NCBI GenBank assembly: GCA_011634665.1
Contig: WAEK01000003.1
Coordinates: forward strand, 681,001-745,000
Reading direction: 5' to 3'
Origin: Mortierella sp. BCC40632
Lineage: Eukaryota > Mortierellomycota > Mortierellomycetes > Mortierellales > Mortierellaceae
Length of the DNA: 64,000 bases
The notes below the pieces were generated by a model that was given only the letters and a program-made list of their open reading frames with translations, was not told the DNA's origin and did not search any database. Numbering within the stretch: position 1 is the stretch's first letter; each line of letters opens with the position of its first letter. A program made the position numbers and the translations under genes. Positions 1 through 13,791 of the stretch are shown piece after piece.

Positions 1-1790
1 TCCCAATCTTTCCCCAAGGGCTTTGAAAAGGCGTAGCCTAATGTTCTTGTTTGCGTGCCACCGGCAATTGACTATAGTTGTATCAGGGAGAAAGGTTGTA
101 CTGACAATGTTCATTGCTGGATCTTTATCCAGCATGAGGGTCTTTGGGGGCTTATTTTCATTCAGCTCTAGCAGTTGCGAAAAGGACCCATTCGTAATCT
201 GAGGTCTCTTCGCCAGAGGTAAGGGCACAGGCTACCAGTCTTGTCCGAAAATTGTTGTCAACTACAACGAAGCAATGGAGCGGCATACCGAATCGATTGG
301 TGGATGCAGTTGTGTCGTGGACGACAACGTCATGATACCTCCTGTATAAATCCTGTTGCGCCGGGCACATCCAAAAGACAGCCTGGAGACGACCGGCCAC
401 AATCCTGTTCCTGGAGAGCCATTGGCCTGGGATTTCTCCAAGCAAGTTGAACAACTGGGCAGCATCAGAAATGGTGTTAGACGATGCACGTTGTTTCGAG
501 ATATAGTTGGCTATTTTTTTCTGGTCGAACAAGTACTTGGATTTCGTAAAAGAGGCGCTTCGGGTTATCTGAAGCATCTCTATCGTTTTACCAGTTCCCC
601 AACCCATTTCTGCAGCCTGTCTGATTAAATTGAGGTCATACTCTGTAAGAGGCTCAAATTCTGGACGAGGTTTTCCAAGGGCGTGGTTGTGCAAAAAACA
701 GAGATGCTGGAAATACGCCATCGTGGCTTGATAGACTTTGGGCTGTTAAGGTATACAGCGTATTTGCAGCCACAGCGGACTGAAATACTTCCTGGCCGCT
801 GCTTGGATGGATCAAAACCTTTTTTGAGGTGTGTGTGCCCTGGCGAGTGCAAACGATTAACCCTTGGTGAAAAAAAAAAAAAAGGCTCCCTAAGTCTCCC
901 GTTGTGCCAACGCCCTCTTTGATATCGACATAACACAAAGTTGACAACAACTCACTTACCAGTCGGATAAGTAGCATTTTTCGAAGAAGAGTTGGCCCTC
1001 GTTCGGAAACCATTGCGGCAGGCATAGTCGAGCATCATGGACTTGGCCTCCTCGAAATCCGAGAATTGATCATCGACTGCGGGGCTCCATCCAACAGCAT
1101 CCACGTGCTCTCCTAGAAAAGGAAAGCGTACAAATTTAGCACAACTCGTAGGCTAGTCTCAAGTGCAACAACTGCTAGATTCAATAGCGCACGCACCATA
1201 GCTCTGACACTCCGTGTTGTCCCTGTTGTCATGACCACTTGCAGATGAGGCCTCGCCTCTGAGGCCTTCTAGATCTTCTGATGTATCCGACTCATTGGGC
1301 AGAGAGAAACAGCGTCGTCCTCATCACTTTCGTTCCTTTGTGGAACTATTGTCACTCTCGCTGCTGCTTGAAGATGAGGTACAACTCTCAGGACAATCAG
1401 GGGCTGTTCGATCTATCGCCGTCGGACTTTTTCTTGCCAATTGTTCGGATACCCTCGTCTGGGCCTCTAGTCTTTTCCAGCTCTTCGACACTTGGCTCCT
1501 TTTCGCTCTCGTTAAGCTCCCTACTGCCAGTAGCAAAGCTTTTCGTGTCTACAATGATTTCTTCCAAACTCTCATAGTCGAAGTTGTCATCGGAGCTGGC
1601 CAAGTTGTTGTAATGATCAATGTAGTCGTCTGAATCCCTATCCACATCCGTGTAATCACTCTCGTCAGTTATGGGGCTCAGCTCTCTGCTTTTTGGATAC
1701 TTTGCTTCTTTCTGGCCCTCGCAAAGAACTGTATTGGCTGACTTTCCTAAGTCCTTGAGATACTTCTTGAACTTCTTGTCCAAATTAATG
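1..1790 (-). pseudogene. FAR1-type MULE transposase, decayed, runs off left edge
   Basis: This looks like the remains of a Mutator-like (MULE) DNA transposon protein. An exon near 960-1110 carries a FAR1-like DNA-binding start (FSDFEEAKSMMLDYACRNGF). After an intron at about 861-959 (GTAAGT donor, CACCAAG acceptor) the domain continues with VCTRQGT and VRCGCKYAVYLN. A FLHNHAL block follows, then the transposase core at 1-540 with VVVHDTTASTNRFGMPLHC and, near the left edge, LDKDPAMN and CRWHANKN. A second intron probably spans about 1110-1197 (GTGCGT donor, TTCTAG acceptor). The acidic, Asp/Ser-rich stretch at 1397-1790 is probably the N-terminal part. The frame changes at least three times: inside the FAR1 domain near 815, near 715, and near 180 where one extra T in a TTTT run shifts the core. 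The C-terminus lies outside the window. Identity as MULE/FAR1 is confident; which frameshifts are real decay is not settled. Confidence 0.8.
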
Positions 1791-2094
1791 ACCTTCGGAT
1801 TGTTCCCTTTCTCCTTCCAAAAGTGCTTTTACGACAATCGTCTTCCGTGACCTAAACGTAGATGGATACAACTTAGATACTGGATACTGGTGTTCCTTTT
1901 ACTAGCCCTAGTTTGCCCTGCGTACCGCAGGGATCCCCATTGCATCTCTAACTGATGTTGGAGGCATAGTAAGTTGAGCTATCTCCTGTGAATATGAACA
2001 GGTATGTTTGGTGGGACGGATTGTCCTTGTAAATGGCTCCAGTGTATGTCTCTCCAGTGAGAGTAGAGTCGACCCTCCTGCTATCGCAATACAA

Positions 2095-2290
2095 ACGGCT
2101 GCGTTCACATCCCGGGACTTGATCGTATGTCCTCGCTGGACTGACCCGCACTGGCTGTTCGTACACTCCATTGCTCCATTCACCTGAACCATCTTCTCCT
2201 TGCCATCCACAATCCGACGCGACCGTGCCTTCCTCAATTGACCAAAACACTCGGCACGTCTGGCTCGTCCTGAATTCATCAGTAAGTCCA
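2095..2290 (-). other. Zinc ribbon plus RuvC-III block of the Fanzor-like gene
   Basis: This C-terminal block identifies the family. DEFRTSQTC is followed by CFGQLRKARSRRIVDGKEK, then ECTNSQC, then SRDVNAAVCIAIAG. TnpB and Fanzor proteins end the same way: a TS-x2-C-x2-C knuckle, a second C-x(2-4)-C knuckle, and a D-x-NAA motif that supplies the last RuvC aspartate. The first knuckle is split by a frameshift: four bases separate the two Cys codons where six would give C-x2-C. The Asp and both Asn/Ala positions of RuvC-III are present. The Glu in DEFRTSQTC could be the alternative RuvC-II glutamate reported for some TnpB/Fanzor lineages; that assignment is inference. Confidence 0.72.
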
Positions 2291-4499
2291 ACCACTCCGT
2301 ACCGCATATGCTGCTCTCTCATCTTTCCTCCTCCCCGTCTGGCGTGCCCTCCAATTCTGCTTCCCTACTCCCGTTCCTCCCGACCCCACCAGCATCACTG
2401 GGATGGTGATGGACCATTCTTGCGACACCGAGCCGGGTGCTGGTAGTTACCCCAGGTACACGCTATATGGTGCCGTTGGCAACCACCACACCATCCATCT
2501 GACGGGGATACCTCTAGAACATTAAAAAAGAAGAAGACTCAGTAAAAAATAAAAAAAAAAAAAAAAGGACATTTTGTTCTGCTCAACTGTACCTGATGGG
2601 CTCTCTGACCCAAACGTTTCCAATGCGTGATTCTTCACATACTCCCTCTCTGCTGCCGCCACCTTCCCCCCACACCCTTCTTGTGCGAAGTCGCTGGTTG
2701 TGCAGATCCTTCAACCTTGCCTTGGATTTCTCAAATCCCTTCAATGCTTTGCGTGACTCTCGATGCAGCTCATGCGCCCTGTCAATCTCCTCCATCGTCT
2801 GTGCTGTCTTCAAAACTTGTTCCTTGTCTGAGAGCTTCTCCAGTGCTTCGCGTACATCACTATTCTCCGGTCTCTTAAGTCGCATCTCTCGCCTCTTGGC
2901 TACCCGTCGCATCCCTGAAGCTTCATTGAGCTGAGGTGCCGTGATCTTGAATGGACGACTCTGGGGTGTCCATTGTTCTCTAGAGGCAGTTGCCTCTCCT
3001 GATGACTCCTCATCCGGAGGCGGTGGCCATGGCTCAGGATTAGAGCTCCCAAAGGTTTCCTCCGCATCCTCTTCTGTGCCTATTCATCATTAAAAAGCTA
3101 TTAGATGCGCTGAGCTTGACAGATGACCGACATTATTCCTTACATCTTGCCCATTCAACTTACCATAAAGTACAGCATATCGGTTGATATGCGTCTTGAT
3201 CTCGCCCAGGGTCTGTGCACATGTTACACTCATCGTTCGAATCCCTGGATCTGTCCCTGCAAAAGACAATTCTGTCCTCTGGCAACTTGGAAATATCGAG
3301 CCGCCTCGTTGAATCCTCGACTGTAAAATCCTTCACAGTAGGTGTGGTGTACTCCACCGCCTTTGAGCCATCCTTGCTCTTTGGGGTCTTTGCTGTAACT
3401 ACCCTGCGCGGCCCATTTCCAGTAACTCTTCTCTTTCCGCAGGCGTCGCAACTGACTCTCCTGTGGCTGTACAGTTGCTCGAAGAGCTCGCACCTTTCTC
3501 CTTGCTTCTTGAAGAACGCGATATGTCTTTTTTTGCTCACTCCCTCTTCCGTCCTCTACACTCTGAATATTGCCCTCATTCGTGTCTCGCCCCCGATGCC
3601 TTCCTTGTTTGCCTTCTCATTCTCTTTTCTGACTGCTGTGCGGTGGTTCTTGGCTGTCAGGCTTTGATCCGTCTCGAGCACCTTGAGTTCCTTTCGGCCT
3701 CGCTTGATTCTACTCTCAAGGTCTTTGATATTGCTCTCTACTCTCTTGATCTCTTCAGCAATTGTTTCCACTTCCATCTTTTGATACTCTATCTCTTTGG
3801 TCCAGTCCATAGTATCAGTCCTGACCTTGGCCTTGACCCGCCTCTCGTAGTGGCTGAACAACGGGCGACCTCCACGCTCGGCTCCCTGTGGAATCACTTC
3901 ACCCAAAATCCGGACTGTGTACCTATCGACGAACATCATTCTGTCCGCAAATCTGAGGCCATGCTTGCGACACAGCCTTTGAACTTTCTCCAAGTCGAAG
4001 AATGCCCCAAAGACTGCGTCCTTGTGATGTGGGACTCTTTCTCCGGCTATTAGAGGAGTGCCTTCAGAGTTCTTGATATCAAAGTGGCCTGGCGTCTTGG
4101 CACACAACACCTCGTATAACCCCTTCGCTCCAAGAATCAATGCATGACTGGAAGAAGGTGATATCTGCGGTGACAAAAGCCGAGTGTGCTGAGGATACCC
4201 AGCCGCTCTTTGAATTGCGTTGGCAATGATGGCCATAGGTGCAAGCAAAGTAGCGTGGGCCAAGGGGGCGCCCTCGTTCCACCTTGGGGTCTCGTCTCTC
4301 GGCTAACTCGACGTTTTGCAACATAGGGTCGAAGTGCGTTGGCCAGCTTGGCTACAACACTGCATTGCTCCTCGGTGATATCCATTCCGCCGTGTGCTGA
4401 CTTTCTGACCCAGTTGTTGTCGATTTCCTTCTCGATTCGGGGTGACTCTAGGAGCATACGAAGAAGTCTCCTCAAAGACAATATGATCGCTCTTGTTGG

Positions 4500-4875
4500 C
4501 TCTTTAGCGAGAGAATCCCCTAATTCGTTTTCTAGTTCTTCCTCCATCTCATCGAGATCCCAGTCGTCGAAATCAGACCCTTCGAGATTGTCAGAGTCCT
4601 GATCTTTGACAGTTCTCCTTTGGGTCACACCATTGTCCTTGTTGTTCACCTCAACCACCGGCTCTTTGACAAAATCTTCCTCCGGTTCTTTAATGTCCCA
4701 ATCGTCAAAATCAATCCCTTCAAGGTCGTCCGTATTCGGGTCTTCGACGGCTCTCCTTAGGGCTTGAATACTGGATTCACCGCCCGCCTCGACTGTCGGC
4801 TCTTTGACAGGGTCACCCTCCAGTTGGCTAAAATCCCAGTCATCAAAATTGACCCCTCCGAAATTGTCCGTATCC
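4500..4875 (-). repeat. Three-fold internal FDDWD protein repeat, about 45 codons per unit
   Basis: Within the Fanzor-like gene, three successive acidic units share the pattern (D/N)-(L/F)-x-G-x-(D/N)-F-D-D-W-D followed about 15-20 residues later by (V/A)-K-E-P. The cores are VNFDDWD, IDFDDWD and SDFDDWD. DNA spacing is about 135-140 bases, so they arose by tandem duplication inside the coding region. The function is unknown. Such short acidic Trp motifs often act as docking peptides, but nothing here proves it. Confidence 0.8.
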
Positions 4876-6660
4876 AGATGTTCGAGTCGGACATCCAGTG
4901 GTTCAAAACATTCCGCCCCAGCGGTTTGGGCTGTGTACTTGTGAGCCAGGATGTATTCAATCCTGTGCAGGACCGATTGAATCCGTTGCCCATCTCCGGT
5001 TGGGTCTTTGTCAAAAGCACGGTTGAGATCATCGCAGAGCACCAGGATTGTCCGTTTCCATCTACTCTTGCCTACAGTTGCATTCTTGGGATGACTTTTC
5101 TTTCTCGTGGCCTGACGACTTGAGTTTTTTCTCTCTCTGCTTTCGCTCTCTCTCTCTGGAGCCAGATGGAGCCGCAATAGAAGCAAGAGAGTGTGATCGA
5201 GAAGCTTGTCATACATCTGGCCTCCCAAAGGTTCTCGATGTTTGTAGCCATTTGCTTCAAGTGCTCACTAACAGTACTTGAACGGCCTCCAACATCTACT
5301 GGCTTTTGCTTTTGCCCGATACGCGAGGTTACCGACCACACTGCTCCAGACCTGTCGCCTGGCTTTGTTCGCTGCGTTAACTCCTTGAGCTCCGAAGAAC
5401 CAAGAATACATGAACAGGGAGAAAGCTATACGACATTAGAGTTGTCGTGTCGCTCTTTTCTCTCGGCTTCCAGGTGCTCTGGCAAAAGGTCAGGAAGGGC
5501 CGCAACTGGGAGCAAGGACAGGACAGTCTTGTCCCGAAACTCGAATCCTGCCCGGAAAGACCGACTGGATGTCAAAGGCCATCTTGGTAGATGGATTGAT
5601 GTAGTGAGTCCCTGATGCGAGCTAAAAAAAAAGAAAAAAAGAGGTGATATTCATTTGTCAGTAATAGAAAAAAAATAATAAAATAAAATAAAATAAAAAT
5701 GCAGAGCCATTACCTCATGAACCGCCTTCGTAGCCAGCACCGAGATTTTTCCTCACAAACCACCGTCATAGCCTCTTGACTTTTCTCTAGGAGAATTCGG
5801 ATTCTCTCTTTGTCCTCTGTACAAAGATCAGGCCGAAGAACTTGCTGAAGTGTGGCTGTGCAGGATCGGAGCTGTCTCTGATCGGGTCCAGTCTCTTCCT
5901 CCTCCATCTCGTAATCACCATCGCTGCCACCATCATCGCCATCACCGTTTCTTCCGCTTCCTCTCCTACTACTACTACCTCTTCCTCCTCCTCCACTTGT
6001 TCTAGCTGCCGCATCGACTTTATCGTTCGAGTCGGCGCGACCCTTCCCTTTAGACAGCTTTTTGGTCTTGGCCTCTTCTTCTGCCTCCCATAGTGACTGA
6101 AAGTTTGCTTCGAGGTAGCTGTTCCATTGGTTGACGGTGCCGTCCTTCCCCAATTTTTTGTCCATAGTAGTCCTAGAAAGATCTCGGGCGGCCACGTTGG
6201 AGGCTCTTATGGTATCGAAGGCGGACTTTTTGATGCATAGAGGAAGTCTCTTTGTTGCAATAAGAGACTGGTAGGCTTCCCCTTTGTCTTTGCCCTTTTA
6301 AGATGCTTCCTTTAATGCGGTTTGCTATGTAGTCATGCCTGCACAGTATCAAGTGGAGAAGCCATTAGATACACCATGCTTTATGAGGCTATTTCTGCTA
6401 TCGAGTACTTGAAAAGTACATGTTTAAACATTTACCTTGCTTTTTTGAAGGCTTCCTGGATATCAGCGTCCGCAGGATCGTCTAACTTCCGTTTTTTAAA
6501 ACCGCTATAGGTTCTTGGGCCTGTGCGGTAGACCGAGGGAGTAGCGGCTATGGTATGGCTGGGCTGGAGGTTCTCCTGGGGTATGTTGTTGGACCGAGTA
6601 GTTCTTGGATGGCACCAATGCCAAACACTCCCTCGTCCCAAGGTAGGAGTCAACGTGTTG

Positions 6661-7035
6661 AAGAATACCGATTGACATTGTCGAGTCTTCGCTCCTGAAG
6701 ACCTTTGTCTTTTCGGGTGGAGAAGACAAAAATGTCAACGTGTAGCTCTGATGACAATAGTCGGAAATGCAGGTTGCTGTGGGGTGGGATGTCAACTGAT
6801 GTGTCTCCAATGGTAAGAGTGAATAGAGGGGTTTCGAGATGCAGTGTTATTGAGAAGACTTTGCACGATCGATGTTGTCGCTGGTACCCGAGATGTTTCA
6901 AGTGGAGCCATGTCGACGACGATGCCCCTGTCGGCAGAGTGTCTCCATCGTACTTGCCCTGTTTTCCAATTGACAGTGGTCAAGGGACAGAGTACTCTCC
7001 AGTCTGGGTGCAAGAGCAGGGTCATGCCTCTCTAG
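6661..7035 (-). other. Protein-like fragments upstream of the Fanzor-like gene
   Basis: Two overlapping minus-strand reading frames look protein-like rather than random: VNWKTGQVRWRHSADRGIVV (upstream) and TPLFTLTIGDTSVDIPPHSN with SSELHVDIFVFS (downstream). They would join by one frame change near 6860. They may be the far N-terminal part of the Fanzor-like protein or the end of another broken gene. I do not recognise a domain. Confidence 0.3.
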
Positions 7036-7099
7036 CATGCTCCTCCAGACTCTCAAGAGTCCTGCGCTGTGATCTCTCTTTGCAAAAAGAATAATTCAG

Positions 7100-7541
7100 T
7101 GTTGACTCTAAAAAGAGCAAAACGATGTAGTAAATATTTAGCAAGGTGTCAAGTTGAACTGTTGGGGGTCCTTTTTGTGCTTTCTTTTTTTCTTTGCCCT
7201 ACCATGATAAAAAAGGAAGAGAGAGCGTGTATGTGTGTAGTAGTGTATGTGTATAGTGTGTAGTGTGTAGTGTGGATTGTGGATTGTGGATTGTGGATTG
7301 TGGAGTGTGGAGTGTGTGTGTGCAAGGAAAGAAAAAAGGTCAAGTTCAAGCAGAGCTCTCTTCTCTCTCTTCTCTCATTGTTGAATCCTCTAGTGCGCTG
7401 CACTTTGCATCTTCTCACTTTTAATTTGTCGGTGCCAGAATGGCGCTGGGGAAAAATATGAATCATTCTTTTTTTCCTCACGCTTCAGGGGGACCATGCG
7501 CAGTGCACGGTCTTCAAACTGACATAATCATGAACTGTATG

Positions 7542-7578
<37 letters not shown>

Positions 7579-7964
7579 CTTTTTGAACACACATTCCTCA
7601 GACTTAAGCTGTTCGTTACGTAGTAGCTCTATTTTGCATAGCTGTGGCACGCAGGACCAAGCACTTGTATTCAAACTCCTGCCCTTGCTGAATTGAATAT
7701 TTCTCAAATTGACCTCTTTTCTAAATGGTCCTTTTTTCAAATCCTACTTTTCCTCGAAATAGTCCTTTTTTCAAATCCTACTTTTCCTCGAAATAGTCCT
7801 TTTCTAAATAGTCTTTTTTTCAAATACTACTTTTTTTCTAAATAGTCCTTTTTTTCAAATCCTACTTTTTTTCGAAATAGTCCTTTTTTCAAATCCTACT
7901 TTTTCGATATAGTCTTTTTTTTCAAATACTTTTTTTTTCTAAATAGTCCTCTTTTCTGAAATAG

Positions 7965-8004
<40 letters not shown>

Positions 8005-8134
8005 GGTCTGTCCGACCAAAGTGGATGAAATGAAAAGAGAGAGAGAGAGAGAGAATAAGGGATGGACACCGTTTTTTTTTTCAGAAACCTACTTTTTTTT
8101 TTTTTTTTTTTTTTTTCTTTCAAACACCAAGTGT
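7100..8134. repeat. Low-complexity, AT-rich repeat field without a gene
   Basis: This stretch holds TG-rich satellite sequence (7230-7320), a GA microsatellite (7540-7579), about seven imperfect copies of a T-rich unit of roughly 35 bases (7720-7960), a T run over 30 long (about 7965-8003), a second GA run (8035-8054) and more T runs (8075-8117). The only reading frames are Lys/Phe/Ser homopolymers. I see no gene. Confidence 0.85.
7720..7965. repeat. Tandem T-rich repeat, about 35-bp unit, about 7 copies
   Basis: The unit is roughly TAGTCCTTTTTTCAAATC followed by CTACTTTT and a short TCGAAA or CTAAA end. Copies vary mainly in T-run length and in CGAAA versus CTAAA, and the last copies are shortened. 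The array leads straight into a pure T run. Confidence 0.8.
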
Positions 8135-8587
8135 TTATTGATTAGCTTTGCATCGACCCATTAGGGCCACCAATGTCTCAAGTTGCTTGTTGCAATGGGA
8201 AGGAGTGAGGAGAAAGACTGCTGCCAAAAAGGTCAATAGGAAGAGGTGACCAGGTGTCTCAACATGTGCCCTTTTGAGTCTGTGTTTCACCAATTGGATT
8301 AGGTACTTTTCTTGAATCGCCTTCACCCCAGTACCTTGATTGCTAGCTCCTCTTTTATTCATGGCACTCTTGAAGTTCCATCTCAGGTTCTTCATGTTTC
8401 GGCTTAGTGAGTGTCGCTGGTCGTCCTGGTCCGAGTGGCAGTCGCTAATGGCTTTGAATCGGCCTTGATCGTTCGCCCTGCTAGAGTCGTACCACCACAC
8501 CAGTGCCCGAGCAAACGCCTCTACTGCCTGCTTTCTTGCCTGAGGGTCATTGATATCAATTCCATGAAAAGACACTGTACCTGTCAT
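8135..8587 (-). CDS. Hypothetical protein, 150 aa, unrecognised
   Basis: This is an ATG-initiated open frame of 150 codons on the minus strand. The translation starts MTGTVSFHGIDINDP, has a fairly normal amino-acid mix, a basic middle (SRNMKNLRWNFKSAMNK) and one hydrophobic stretch near residues 115-130 (LFLLTFLAAVFLLT) that could be a membrane segment or a chance product. No domain is recognised. It sits between a T-rich repeat field and a minisatellite, so it may be a transposon remnant or spurious. Confidence 0.3.
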   Translation of the reverse strand: MTGTVSFHGIDINDPQARKQAVEAFARALVWWYDSSRANDQGRFKAISDCHSDQDDQRHSLSRNMKNLRWNFKSAMNKRGASNQGTGVKAIQEKYLIQLVKHRLKRAHVETPGHLFLLTFLAAVFLLTPSHCNKQLETLVALMGRCKANQ

Positions 8588-8589
8588 GT

Positions 8590-9530
8590 CCTACTACTGT
8601 ACATGGTCGAGAAAGCATGCCGACGCATAGAGAAACAGTGCGAAGCGAGGGCATGGGATCCTAAAGTTGGTTCTGAGTAATCGATTAGAGATGTCTGAGA
8701 GAACCCGACTACTCGGTGAAAGGAGCCCCTCTCGGGTCTGCGATACCTTTTTGGGATGTATAAAGATTAAAAAAGGTCTACCCCACATGGAGTGAGAAAA
8801 TGATTACGATTGCAGCCGCTATTACAAATGTTCAGTCACCACCACCACCACCACTATTCACATTGCAATTGCAAGGTTTGCTAAAAGTACCCTTCAGGGA
8901 TGGAAAAGAATAGAAGAAAGTTTCTTATTCCGGTTAATGGCCAATGACCGGTGCTCCGATCTTATACCTTCTCACAGCACTCCGATCTTATGCCTTCTCA
9001 TAGCGCCTTCTCATAGCGCCTTCTCATAGCACTCCGATCGTATGCCTTCTCGTAGCACGCACGTAGCACATTACACGCAGGACACCTACGGCCGAATAAA
9101 GAAGGGCATGTTGTAGCAGACAGCAGAACAGGTAGCAAAAAGAAGGGCAGGTAACAGCAGAGCAAACCAGAAAAAGGAAAAGGGGGATTTTTCTATCAGG
9201 TGACGCGAAACTCAGATATTTCTTTAGTATTTGTTAGATGCTAAGCTGCATGGTTGTGGTGCTTCACCTGACTCTTGCCCAACACATGCGGTTCCCGGGT
9301 TGGTACGAGAAAGCCCGTTGAAAAACTGCTCTCACTTAGTGCTAGAGTCAGATTAGACGCGTCCGCTAAAAAAAGTTTGATCTCTGCTCCTACACCTTGC
9401 TCGTTTGCCACTCTCGTTTCTGTTCATGATTTGCGAGGCCCCGATTCTCAACAAACCCAAAGGTGAACATGGGTCACTCTAAACTACCGTCCACCACAAA
9501 ACTTTGCTTTGTCTCAAAGACTATGCCAGT
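8590..9530. other. Gene-poor spacer with a short degenerate repeat
   Basis: No convincing gene is seen. A CAC-rich patch lies near 8838-8855. At 8950-9060 the phrases CACTCCGATCTTATGCCTTC and GCGCCTTCTCATA recur several times as a short imperfect tandem repeat. A 63-codon frame at 9275-9466 has no supporting feature. Confidence 0.6.
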
Positions 9531-9539
9531 GAAGTACCA

Positions 9540-10370
9540 GAGAAGTTTATGGTTGCTCAGAGAAGTCTATGGTTGCTCAGAGAAGTCTATGGTTGCTCAG
9601 AGAAGGGGAGGGTTGTTCAGAGAAGGGGGGGGGAGGGTTGCTCAGAGAAGCTATATGGTTGCTCAGAGAAGTCTATGGTTGCTCAGAGAAGGGGAGGGTT
9701 GTTCAGAGAAGTCTATGGTTGCTCAGAGAAGGGGAGGGTTGTTCAGAGAAGGGAGGGTTGCTCAGAGAAGTGTATAGTTGCTCAGAGAAGTATGTGGTTG
9801 CTCAGAGAAGTATATGGTTGCTCAGAGAAGTCTATGGTTGCTCAGAGAAGTATGTGGTTGTTCAGAGAAGAAGTGTGTGGTTGTTCAGAGAAGTCTATGG
9901 TTGCTCAGAGAGGGAGGGTTGTTCAGAGAAGGGGAGGGTTGTTCAGAGAGAGAAGGGGAGGGTTGCTCAGAGAAGTGTATAGTTGCTCAGAGAAGTATGT
10001 GGTTTTTCAGAGAGGGGGGAGGGTTGTTCAGAGAAGTCTCATGGTTGCTCAGAGAAGGGGGGTTGTTCAGAGAAGTCTATGGTTGCTCAGAGAAGGGGAG
10101 GGTTGTTCAGAGAAGGAGAAAGTTTTTCAGAGAAGGAAACGAGATGTACAAAGAAGTGGGCGTCAGAAACAGCTTAGATAAAGAGATGGGTAAAACAGAG
10201 AAGTTGGGCGTACAGCAAAGAGAAGGAAATGGGAAGTATGTGGTGGTATTTAAGAAAAAGTATGTGGCTTCTCAGAAAAGTACATGGTTGTTTAGAGAAG
10301 TACATGGTTGTTCAGAGAAGTACATGGTTGTTCAGAGAAGTACATGGTTGTTCAGGAGAAGGAGACAAGG
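9540..10370. repeat. 20-bp minisatellite, some 35-40 units in two variants
   Basis: Two unit types of about 20 bases alternate irregularly: GTTGCTCAGAGAAGTCTATG and GTTGTTCAGAGAAGGGGAGG, with minor forms ending in TATGTG or GTGTATA. After a diverged gap (10140-10260) four more units ending in TACATG close the array. As 20 is not a multiple of three, each frame gives a 20-residue periodic peptide (CSEK..., VAQRS..., LLRE...), and all three plus-strand frames stay open. That is the expected artefact of the repeat, so I do not call a protein. Confidence 0.9.
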
Positions 10371-10469
10371 AAACAGGATGTTCAAAGAAGGGGCTGGGGT
10401 GTTCATAGAGGAGTGGAACGAGAGACCAGCGTGAGAACCAAGATTTATACAAGGAGGTAAGTTCAAGTG

Positions 10470-10573
10470 GTAGTCTCTCTCTTTCTCGCTTACTCTCTTT
10501 CTCTTCTACACGCACTCACTCACACACATTCCCACTCACATACACACATATTCTCCCTCTCTCCCCTCTCTCC

Positions 10574-10606
<33 letters not shown>

Positions 10607-10632
10607 TTTCACGCTTCTCTGCCTCACCTCTT
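10470..10632 (+). repeat. CT/CA microsatellite tract before the 10633 ORF
   Basis: A pyrimidine-rich run with CACA and CTCT microsatellites lies just upstream of an ATG-initiated ORF. Pyrimidine-rich leaders of this kind also precede several real genes here (acyl-CoA oxidase, G-alpha), so it could be a promoter or 5-prime leader. Confidence 0.5.
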
Positions 10633-11390
10633 ATGCCAAAGCAGACTCCGACTAAGTCAGAGAACTCTCTGGCAGCCAAGTCGCCCAGGAGCAGGGGCGG
10701 TGAGGGACGATTCGGCAACAGCGGAAGAAGCGAAAAGAAAAAAAAGACCAACGAGGGGGTTGGTTGCACTTATTTCCAGTGTACTCAAGGACTCTTGAAG
10801 AAGCGGCGATCGCGGATTCTCTCTGCACAGGATGAAGATCACCTTTTGCGATACCACCAAGATGTGCCCCTCCGATTCCGCTGCAACAAAATAAACAAGG
10901 ACATCATTATCACACGAGACCCCACCGCCGAGATGCAGTACCGCTGCCTATGTATGACAACAATCAATTTGAGGTCATCAGTTAAACGACACTATGATAG
11001 CTGCGAGCTTGCACAGAAGGCGGCTGAAGAAATGACCAACAATCCTTCAACATTTATTGCTTGTCAGCCATCATCATCGCTCGAAGTAGCGGATTCAGAC
11101 ATGACAGAGCATTTCAACCAAACAATGGCCACCTACTACGAAAAATTTACCACCAAATTGTCTCAGCGAAGCGATAGGATTGAGCAACAACTCAGGGGGA
11201 GCACTTCATTGGCCATCGTGTCCTCATAGACGAGCTTTCAAGAGTCACAAAGCAGCTGGTGCAGGCAGAAGAGCGTCAATCCAAGAGACTAAGCGACTCT
11301 CTACACGTTAGAGAGAGACTGGATAGTCTTGACGATAGGTTGAGGGCGATCAATAACTATTTTGAAACCTCGACACCAGGTAATCTTACA
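10633..11390 (+). pseudogene. Cys-rich, coiled-coil hypothetical protein with a frameshift
   Basis: The frame opens with ATG at 10633 and runs to a TAG at 11227-11229 (198 codons). It has a Lys/Arg/Ser-rich N-terminus with an EKKKKTNEG patch, then a Cys/His cluster (FRCNKIN, YRCLCMTT, KRHYDSC, about residues 80-125) that could bind zinc, then a heptad-like helix (YYEKFTTKLSQRSDRIEQQL). The same helix continues in the next frame from about 11223 (LIDELSRVTKQLVQAEERQ, DSLDDRLRAINNYFE), ending at a possible donor near 11381 (CAG then GTAATC). The protein is therefore broken near 11222 by a small indel. Coiled coil after a zinc-like N-terminus suggests an accessory or transposon DNA-binding protein; no family is recognised. 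Confidence 0.45.
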
Positions 11391-11870
11391 GATCACTTTT
11401 GCTGCCATTGCAAGCCATCTCCTCATGATATCTATTCTAATATGCCTGATAGTACGAGGTTCTTCACCTTGGAGTCAAATAGATCCATTGTCTCCCCGAG
11501 CCAGAAATGGGGATATTTGTCAAGTCTTCTGAAACTGGTGAGTTTAAAGCACATGATTGGAAGTAAAGACCCTGTTTGTGACACTTTCTAACATGAAAAA
11601 TAGGTGATGATGATTCATCCTAGATACATCCCAGCTAGTAAATAAAAATGAGTTTCAGGAACCCGGTTTGTAGACTTCCAATGCCGCAATAGGGATCTGT
11701 GCGCCAATCCCAATGTTTGAGCCGGCTCGAGTTTACAGAAGCAATCCTCTCTTTTTTGAACTCTTTTATCATTTTTAAGTGGTCTCCTATATCGTGTCAC
11801 ATGCACATGCTACCCTAGTCAAAAAAAGAAGTCAGTATAAAATGAATGATCTTTCGTTACGACTGAGAAT
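11391..11870. other. Spacer, nothing recognised
   Basis: An open frame continues to 11591 on the plus strand without recognisable features, and short minus-strand frames exist. I see no gene, RNA or repeat I can support. Confidence 0.4.
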
Positions 11871-11872
11871 AA

Positions 11873-12028
11873 GATCTCGCAGCTGTTGGATCTCTCGGAC
11901 CTTTTGCCCTAGTTGTAGACCCTGTCTTGACTGCCCCCCTGTGGGGTTCCTTTTGTACTCTATCCCCCCCTCTTCTCTGCATTGTATTTTTTTTTTTGTA
12001 GCTATTTCGTTTCTGGGTCGCCTTCCAC

Positions 12029-12040
<12 letters not shown>
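11873..12040 (+). mobile_element. Non-LTR retrotransposon 3-prime UTR fragment, plus orientation
   Basis: About 165 bases here are similar, in inverted orientation, to 12155-12335. Shared landmarks are TCTCGCAGCT, CCTAGTT, CTTCTCTGCATT, GTAGCTAT and TCGTTTCTG. This copy ends where a T run begins and lacks the AATAAA/poly(A) end, so it is truncated at the 3-prime side. With the minus-strand copy it forms a tail-to-tail inverted repeat. Confidence 0.75.
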
Positions 12041-12069
<29 letters not shown>

Positions 12070-13134
12070 GGCCCTGTTGGGGCTTTATTTGTCAGCGCGC
12101 GCCCGTCCCACGATCTGCAGACGTAGCCAACTAGTTCTCAAGACTAACCACAGAATAGAGAGAAGAAAAAAAAAAAGTGGAGGGCGACTCAGAAACGATA
12201 TAGCTACTAAAAAAATACAAATGCAGAGAAGAGGGAAAAGACCAGAGTACAAAGAGCACCCGCAGAGGGGGGCAAGTCAAGGGCAGGATCTATAACTAGG
12301 ACAAAAAGGGTACGAGGGGTCCAGGAGCTGCGAGAGCGGCTCCTAATCAAGCAGGTCGACCTCAGCAACTTCAGCACGCCTGATGTCGGGCGGCTTCGGT
12401 CTTGCGCGGGAGCTGGAGGAGTATATTCCCCTGGCATGTCTAAGAAAGGACCATAGACAGGGGTGGGCCACATCCGACCAAATGTCACTTCCTACTTGGA
12501 CACCACAATGTACGGAGGGTGGTTCCAAGTCTCGTGCATCCGCTTGTAATTGGCGTCTGGTGTTGCTGCTGCTTTTGGATTCATTGATTGTTGTTTGTTA
12601 TCCTTGAGTTTGGCTTGTTGGAGTGCTGTGTGTGCACGGAGCTTGAGGCTATTGACTGTGAGCCAGAGGAGATCATCCGCTGAGCCGTCTCTTGGGGTTG
12701 GCCCGGAAGTAGCTTGTGGATGGCGACAAAAGTCTTCCAAATGCCGTACAGGACCACTGAGTGTGTGTACTGCGATGAGGGGCAGGCTTTTAGCTTCTGG
12801 CCATCCCAGCATGCAGTTGTCAGGCAGACTGTTGACGATCATGCCCAGGATGAGAGTGGCGATCCAAGAGCGGGCGGCCTTCTAGAGGGCCCACACTGCT
12901 CCGCAGTTGGCGAAGGAGTGTCGTGGATCCCTCTATGCGGGGCTCCTGCCCGGGGTAGTCGATGAGACAGCGCTTGCACTTCTTATTGACGTCTTCGCTC
13001 CACGTAGTTCTGGCTTTATCTGTTGAAAAGACCTCTTTTGGTGACCTAAGGAGGCGGTGTGTGCGATTGAACACTGTGTCCCACCACTTGTCAGGATAGG
13101 GGTCGTTGTTCTGCGCAGGAGACTTGAGCTCCAA
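12038..13134 (-). mobile_element. LINE-type retrotransposon 3-prime end (reverse transcriptase C-terminus, 3-prime UTR, poly(A))
   Basis: On the minus strand the coding remnant includes a C-terminal zinc knuckle typical of LINE ORF2: CKRC, then, after a frame change, DPRHSFANCGAVWAL, giving about C-x2-C-x14-H-x4-C. A TAG follows at about 12884. Downstream come SWIATLILGMIVN and a further Leu/Ala-rich stretch to about 12490, then roughly 280 bases of 3-prime UTR. It ends with an AATAAA signal near 12085-12092, a small GC hairpin and a T run at 12038-12066 (poly(A) in element sense). Only the last kilobase of the element is left, so it is a 5-prime-truncated, dead insertion. The LINE clade is not determined. 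Confidence 0.75.
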
Positions 13135-13149
13135 CCTACTTACCTTTTT

Positions 13150-13248
13150 TCCTTCCCTTTGGTGGATTGAGGACTAGATAGCCACGTCTGGAAAACATGG
13201 GACGGTGCGCACAAATGAATAAAAACCCTAACGGGGCCTGTAAAAAAA
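13150..13248 (+). mobile_element. Same retrotransposon tail, plus orientation
   Basis: The last 90 or so bases of the same element are present in plus orientation: GAGGACTAGATAGCCACGTC, GGGACGGTGCGCAC, AATAAA (13219-13224), the CCCTAACGGGG hairpin, then seven As at 13242-13248. It directly abuts the 5-prime broken end of the neighbouring minus-strand LINE fragment. Confidence 0.8.
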
Positions 13249-13294
13249 GGAAAAAGAAAAAGCTGGGACTGTAGATAAATGTGAGAGCAGAACG

Positions 13295-13450
13295 TTGAGA
13301 TATGTGTGAGAGTAAGCTGGAGGCCTTTTTCAGGAGATATGTGTGAGAATAAGCGTCTCACACATATGTGAGATTAAGAAAAAAAAGAGTTTGAGAGCTA
13401 TTCTCACATATGACTGAGAATAAGCCGCTCACATATAATGTGAGAATAGC
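13295..13450. repeat. Cluster of short palindromes upstream of tRNA genes
   Basis: ATATGTGTGAGA (13337-13348) is answered by its exact reverse complement at 13356-13367 with a 7-base loop. GCTATTCTCACAT (13397-13409) is answered exactly at 13438-13450 with a 28-base loop. Around them the phrase TGTGTGAGAATAAGC or a close variant recurs four times (near 13302, 13340, 13365, 13408). It could be a miniature inverted-repeat element or a locally duplicated hairpin. Confidence 0.7.
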
Positions 13451-13509
13451 TTTTTCCCAGAACTTGGATAACTTTTTGGATGAAAAAAAGAAATCCAGCA
13501 AAATAGATT

Positions 13510-13580
13510 GCTAACACCTGGAATCGAACCAGGATCGTCTCGGCCACAACGAGATATACTAACCATTATACTATGTTAGC
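13510..13580 (-). tRNA. tRNA-His (anticodon GUG)
   Basis: The 71-base reverse-complement sequence folds as a standard cloverleaf. The acceptor stem is GCTAACA/TGTTAGC, the D-arm holds TAGTATAATGGTTAGTA, the anticodon stem is CTCG/CGAG around loop TTGTGGC (anticodon GTG), and the T-arm is CCTGG-TTCGATT-CCAGG. No intron is present. A T stretch follows downstream on the minus strand (near 13490) as a Pol III terminator. It lies 138 bases from a tRNA-Phe gene in opposite orientation. Confidence 0.95.
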
Positions 13581-13718: not shown

Positions 13719-13725
13719 GCGGCTT

Positions 13726-13766
<41 letters not shown>

Positions 13767-13791
13767 GTGTGTTCAATCCACACAAGCCGCA
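13719..13791 (+). tRNA. tRNA-Phe (anticodon GAA)
   Basis: This 73-base gene has acceptor stem GCGGCTT/AAGCCGC with discriminator A, a D-arm with TAGCTCAGTTGGGAGAGC, anticodon stem CAGA/TCTG around loop CTGAAGA (anticodon GAA) and a T-arm GTGTG-TTCAATC-CACAC. It has no intron. TTTTT follows at 13796-13800 as terminator. Confidence 0.95.

Follow-up and report, generated by a model that had tools for sequence, protein, structure and literature searches.

A probable Fanzor1-class nuclease gene carried by a canonical Helitron in Mortierella, with a reading frame that runs into the element's 3' terminus

The DNA analyzed here (hereafter, the window) is a 64,000-nucleotide stretch of the fungus Mortierella sp. 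BCC40632 (contig WAEK01000003.1, C3 in our numbering, positions 681,001 to 745,000). Near one end it contains a broken minus-strand gene that an earlier reading made without database searches (the sequence-only reading) had proposed to be a Fanzor/TnpB-like RNA-guided nuclease gene. We compared this gene with its other copies in the genome assembly (49.9 Mb, 62 contigs) and recognized that it lies within a Helitron, which the earlier reading had not seen. The features of the element and its gene, in window coordinates, are as follows (^ marks a joint with flanking DNA; numbers beginning with L denote genomic loci).

1902-9238, minus strand: canonical Helitron (Helitron1 type), 7,337 bp, 5' A^TCTAACAAATAC ... 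hairpin-CTAG^T 3'
1902-1947, minus strand: terminal block, 46 nt in aligned members, comprising the C-terminal codons and stop, the Helitron 3' end and the predicted omega-RNA scaffold
1902-1905, minus strand: terminal CTAG, its TAG being the stop where the last frame is open
1916-1932, minus strand: 7-bp hairpin CCCTGCG-GTA-CGCAGGG
1902-2059, minus strand: 3' stretch kept by five Fanzor-less derivatives (L002, L060-L063)
1902-2513, minus strand: Fanzor last exon, with RuvC-II E, C4 zinc ribbon, RuvC-III D, variable linker and terminal tail
2514-2592, minus strand: intron GTACAG..TAG, 79 nt in the window copy
2593-3079, minus strand: next-to-last Fanzor exon, between RuvC-I and RuvC-II
3080-3163, minus strand: intron GTAAGT..TAG, 84 nt in the window copy
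3164-5618, minus strand: large Fanzor exon ending in RuvC-I (GTDPG), its 5' limit approximate and taken from the 844-residue open frame of L015
5710-6297, minus strand: N-terminal extension exon (approximate), resembling the Lunasporangiospora protein P0005 when compared by eye

The minus-strand frames contain all of the motifs originally reported, and in the same order, from GTDPGIRTM (RuvC-I, window 3243-3257) through DEFRTSQTC (its E codon within 2272-2283) and a second Cys knuckle to SRDVNAA (RuvC-III, 2106-2117). A published Fanzor motif reads D-X(125,275)-[TS][TS]-XX-C4-X(5,50)-RD (PMC3627910; this and the other papers are cited from excerpts of their text). The motif spacing in the spliced copy at L017, D-X(272)-TS-XX-C4...RD, falls within that range, while X varies from 212 to 278 in five relatives, two of which (276 and 278) lie slightly above 275. 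All four zinc-ribbon Cys residues are invariant across 12 sequences. We could place three C-terminal exons and two introns in the gene, and 4 of its 19 genomic copies are open from exon 2 across the introns to the element end, which bears out the introns of the sequence-only reading. Its long N-terminal extension was likewise supported, although profile searches with that extension gave no convincing family, and its fungal setting agrees with the homologues, as every one with an organism name is from Mortierellomycota. The gene end, which had been put at 1908, needs to be moved, since the stop is the terminal CTAG (1902-1905) in copies with an open last frame.

Profile searches were of limited sensitivity for this protein. 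In Pfam, none of ten window pieces matched a TnpB/Fanzor family at E<=0.1, the last exon and cleaner pieces from other copies matched 0 Pfam families at E<=1, and the NCBIfam TnpB model gave E=0.081 at best. The gene is also absent from the 48 genome matches to PF07282, falling short of the curated cut-off. This miss is a sensitivity limit of the model rather than a defining trait of Fanzor, and a survey resting on PF07282 would therefore miss such genes. In contrast, the predicted structure of a fungal homologue, P0010 (predicted template modeling score [pTM] 0.77), has a RuvC and target-nucleic-acid-binding fold, and its top PDB matches are the solved Fanzor1 chains; the structure of a longer homologue, P0008, was not used (predicted local distance difference test score 57.8, pTM 0.35). 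The catalytic E and D match chain residues 935 and 1000 of 8gkh (counted by hand), which are E541 and D606 of SpuFz1 at one constant offset. This residue-level alignment takes in the E and D, not the RuvC-I D versus D383, and the RuvC-I D is kept in those relatives that extend to that region. Homologues in other fungi were found at E=7e-93 and 3e-107, with the family present in several Mortierellomycota genera; with the 18 further loci of the gene in this genome, these matches put the resemblance beyond chance. The TnpB/Fanzor class is thus supported by fold and profile comparison, and the gene is a divergent Fanzor1-class nuclease gene, its product being probably RNA-guided.

The ends of the element were fixed at 1902 and 9238 by its other copies, a check that the sequence-only reading had called for. 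A comparison of window 1-8000 with the genome gave 19 loci that match most of the gene (L009-L027, the window copy among them), the 18 others being 97-98% identical except for L027 (94%). Six of these 19 also contain window 1-1901, whereas 13 begin at 1898-1901 without it. The shared 3' end reads ...CCCTGCGGTACGCAGGGCAAACTAGGCTAG then T on the minus strand, with one extra G before the last CTAG in the window copy. The 5' end is A^TCTAACAAATAC at window 9238, and 5' ends read A^TC or A^TT at four distinct sites, all four with the A; one nested group reads 5'-TT, while the 5' ends of L020 and L025 are ambiguous. A search with the end pattern yielded 41 ends with 27 distinct 3' flanks, of which 27/27 have T at position +1 and 24/27 have C or T at +2 (L008 and L053-L055, whose ends misfit the pattern, were excluded from this count). 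The element therefore has the 5'-TC, CTRR-3' and 3' subterminal hairpin of Helitron1 and, like Helitron1, inserts between A and T without target duplication; an uninterrupted site was seen for the Mutator-like host alone, where 1.4 kb is also absent from the window. Judged from these ends, the Fanzor gene is cargo of the Helitron at 1902-9238. None of the 23 PF14214 and 39 PF05970 genome matches to Rep-helicase falls in C3:682902-690238, and the Helitron is accordingly non-autonomous, although Rep-helicase matches are present elsewhere in the genome. On C14, a whole Fanzor gene with this type of end is preceded on the same strand by a degenerate Rep-helicase, and on C6 a Fanzor 3' part has a helicase fragment immediately upstream; these two cases, both decayed, are suggestive only. 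Within the Helitron, window 7700-7960 holds degenerate repeats (AAATAGTCC / CAAATCCTAC units) that vary in number among copies.

A key feature of this element is that the Fanzor frame passes through the Helitron 3' hairpin, the terminal CTAG serving as its stop. In L017, L021, L022 and L024, the last two exons are open as far as the terminal CTAG, and TAG is the stop in 14 of 15 aligned rows (L044 reads CAG). Seventeen distinct 46-mers align without gaps once the ends of L053-L055, which do not fit the pattern, are excluded. The hairpin positions pair in 94.1% of cells versus ≤52.9% for shifted versions, and 3 of the 7 pairs are altered on both sides. Such double changes occupy 9 cells compared to 1.9 in shuffles (0/500 reach 9), but the number of pairs with double changes was equalled by 89/500 shuffles, and the changes may represent few events since they stem from three related sequences (L056, L058 and L059). 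Synonymous divergence (pS) was 0.076 in the last 15 codons before the stop versus 0.299 in the preceding 34 (permutation p ~0.002; 14 sequences, L047 excluded, with pairs that are not independent), and the last four 5-codon blocks had values of 0.137, 0.000, 0.146 and 0.073 compared to 0.194-0.644 earlier. These alignments show constraint on the Helitron 3' terminus as nucleic acid.

The frameshifts noted previously are real in the assembly, as comparison of the 19 copies confirmed. Against the majority base, these copies have 446 indel events versus 405 substitutions, and 297 of the indels lie in runs of at least three identical bases, which make up 15.8% of positions and contain only 77 of the substitutions. 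The indels are not, as a rule, private to individual copies: only 138 of them are, as are 198 of the substitutions; the other 308 indels recur in at least two copies, and some may therefore be inherited, while the homopolymer link stands. L015 retains an 844-residue open frame passing through RuvC-I, and the window retains open frames of 500-899 residues elsewhere. In diverged copies, nonsynonymous change in the motif region is below synonymous change (three of five copies were informative), a pattern that shows purifying selection as far as these comparisons reach. Because indels outnumber substitutions and sit in homopolymers, and because the motif region is under such selection, the frameshifts look like homopolymer assembly errors in a near-identical repeat. 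Of the two options left by the sequence-only reading, a relic or a mis-assembly, the latter is thus favored and decay less so.

The family is abundant. The last exon has at least 151 genome matches (100% to ~33% identity, some being pieces of one gene), and the terminal 25-mer has 62 matches at ≤2 mismatches versus 0 for its reversed control. Fifty-six of these 62 lie at a listed Fanzor match, the remaining six having 1 or 2 mismatches. The derivatives L002 and L060-L063, characterized from the 3' side, share one common deletion junction, keep nothing of the Fanzor region but its last ~159 nt and lie beside five different flanks; they seem, on this evidence, to have moved after gene loss. Another listed Fanzor lies ≤2.5 kb downstream of 9/62 Fanzor-Helitron ends, in the same orientation in all (C1, C2, C5, C6, C9, C12 and C17; also L049, L008 and L002). 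Five of these nine are one nested event, which leaves about five independent events, plus L045 (C10) outside the 62; at L045 and L049 the flanking DNA itself reads as Fanzor exon. The nested copies (L017, L021, L022, L024 and L026) sit in a Fanzor B element that itself appears to end ...TTCATTAGTGATACA(G), a terminus lacking CTRR. Their flank identity (97.3-99.5%) and inner identity (98.3-99.7%) suggest that they spread as a single unit. A second, canonical Fanzor group (VGVNEYYTSKKC; L001-L008) explains the PF07282 matches that were inspected. Within it, a conserved block that follows the stop is common to L002 and L005 (84% over 94 nt, less marked in the others that were compared) and may be their omega-RNA.

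The Helitron is itself inserted in a Mutator-like element (MULE), whose parts in the window are as follows.

158-745, minus strand: MULE transposase domain of the host element, outside the Helitron (PF21056 E=1.5e-8, PF10551 E=1e-7)
9239-13457, no strand assigned: other part of the Mutator-like host, of which Helitron-free copies exist

Three places on C4 match window 1-1901 alone, and L030, L035 and L036 are Helitron-free host copies with 1.4 kb between both joints that the window lacks. The insertion was therefore accompanied, or later followed, by a deletion, and the missing segment includes a promoter-like start. Six Mutator-like copies, including that of the window, carry this Helitron with an identical 3' joint, which suggests that Helitron and host spread jointly. 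The gene as cargo of the MULE alone was ruled out because 13 copies start at 1898-1901 without it. The MULE also contains a minisatellite (window 9538-10400, unit ~20 bp, gttgctcagagaag-like), and two tRNA genes are found at 13509-13580 (minus strand) and 13719-13791 (plus strand).

From these results, we propose, at a probability of roughly 55%, that the gene is a Fanzor1-class cargo of a non-autonomous canonical Helitron family with a terminal omega-RNA and a guide taken from the flank. A transcript running off the Helitron 3' end would yield the omega-RNA, in which the last ~46-60 nt (7-bp hairpin and CUAG) would be the scaffold and the host DNA flanking the Helitron the guide. For the window copy, this predicts the following feature.

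1881-1901, minus strand: predicted guide region, in the flanking Mutator-like DNA

The sequence-only reading had sought a guide RNA at 1790-1908, just downstream of the gene. A scaffold there was rejected because 1-1901 belongs to a distinct Mutator-like element that also occurs in Helitron-free copies; it is predicted instead inside the coding 3' end, at 1902-1947, and 1-1901 would supply the guide only, in the window copy. The Fanzor-RNA complex would then cut the uninterrupted target, the expected target-adjacent motif (TAM) being 5'-ATY-3' at the restored A^T. Only the empty site (...A T Y..., compared to ...CTAG T Y... at the filled right joint) would contain a TAM that spans AT, and the filled site would be spared because the Helitron separates the two bases. 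Such a scheme would tie the parts together economically. The break may favor Helitron copying into, or retention at, that site, with transposition itself performed by a Rep-helicase encoded elsewhere in the genome. That the last 46 letters are shared by gene and Helitron suggests that the two work together. Tentatively, one ~46-60-nt end might combine four jobs: it would provide the last codons with their stop, terminate the Helitron, form the omega-RNA scaffold and anchor a guide that is renewed with each insertion. The A^T target would double as the Fanzor TAM, such that the nuclease recognizes exactly the uninterrupted Helitron target.

A number of results weigh against this proposal and are given here together with the alternatives. 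The Fanzor1 gene could be live and its terminal block conserved solely for the Helitron hairpin and CTAG, with the omega-RNA elsewhere or the guide not drawn from the flank. Hairpin and CTRR are a hallmark of Helitron1 ends (PMC3627910), and synonymous constraint and covariation cannot separate a terminator from an RNA scaffold; the constraint on hairpin and CTAG could be wholly explained by Helitron termination. Folding of single ends was not exceptional versus shuffles (z -1.40 to +0.81 in seven), and an unusually stable terminal RNA was therefore rejected, while a short second stem resembling that of PpFz1 occurs in L058- and L059-type ends alone and is absent from the window type. In addition, the conserved block of L002 and L005 comes after their stop. 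However, low synonymous change extends past the hairpin and CTAG, a 'DAxGAP'-like tail is found repeatedly in several relatives, and known Fanzor omega-RNAs are located at the right end of their elements and take the guide from flanking DNA (PMC10432273). We consider such a terminator-only role unlikely.

Helitrons often capture genes, and the Fanzor gene could also be a passenger of no benefit to the Helitron, dead in most copies. None of the 19 copies was shown to have a whole-gene open frame and most indels recur between copies, whereas the purifying selection, the spread of the family across several Mortierellomycota genera, the homopolymer bias of the indels and the 56/62 ends found at a listed Fanzor match all argue otherwise, which makes a mere passenger improbable. 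Site-by-site homing into Fanzor B also found no support, given the alike flank and inner identities. As for the protein class, the protein that was folded is not the window's own but a relative with 45% identity to spliced L017, its Foldseek TM-scores to Fanzors are only 0.32-0.37, and Cas12j/CasPhi chains come near SpuFz1 on Z (13.2 vs 14.4). A look-alike RuvC or zinc-ribbon protein outside the TnpB/Fanzor family would fit the poor Pfam and NCBIfam results, but was already disfavored by the fold and profile comparisons and is highly improbable.

The proposed Fanzor-Helitron partnership has several precedents in part. Fanzor1 was described in the Helitron2 elements CRe-1, -2 and -3 of Chlamydomonas (Bao and Jurka 2013, PMC3627910), which similarly carry a multi-exon Fanzor1 in non-autonomous Helitrons sharing ends with Helitrons. 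These have two hairpins and a TTTT target, whereas the window element is a Helitron1 (TC...CTAG, A^T target, one 3' hairpin) with its frame fused to the 3' terminus, a feature that the excerpts of that paper do not mention for the CRe elements. SpuFz1 shares the RuvC fold, the E541 and D606 equivalents and the existence of Fanzor-less elements keeping the RNA end (ghost loci; Saito 2023, PMC10432273), but it lies in an inverted-repeat element as a single frame, its RNA region following the stop codon. In Parasitella parasitica, PpFz1 is reported to use a 5'-ATN TAM, and its scaffold is the smallest known; the first stem of this RNA is 7 bp long and the guide segment is C50-C58 (PMC11423790; PDB 9cf0-9cf3). 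The A^T target of the Helitron would contain that TAM. The likeness of PpFz1 lies in protein motif (a related DEFRTS), TAM and RNA size, a short omega-RNA and AT-containing TAM being predicted here and reported there, and it has a cyclophilin-binding insertion. The omega-RNA of GtFz1 of Guillardia theta overlaps the coding end by 17 residues (PMC10432273, PMC11423790), whereas here the overlap would span the whole scaffold and element end together. TnpB of IS200/IS605 and IS607 likewise pairs a nuclease gene with a flank-derived guide, and in IS607 an invariable flanking base forms part of the scaffold (PMC10432273, PMC10711439); unlike these, the present element is a eukaryotic rolling-circle element with introns and no TnpA. 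In the literature searched, with subscription journals largely outside it and papers seen as excerpts, we found no account of a Fanzor frame that ends at the terminus of a Helitron and no paper on Fanzor in Mortierella. Thus, Fanzor1 in Helitron2 is already known, and what is new here is the frame running into the Helitron1 3' hairpin with CTAG as stop. The role of Fanzor for transposons has been stated as unknown, with a Helitron-Fanzor parallel to TnpA/TnpB merely suggested (PMC10432273). The present element offers two defined ends, nineteen near-identical copies, derivatives lacking the Fanzor and a definite predicted RNA and TAM, which together make the idea of a Fanzor-Helitron partnership testable.

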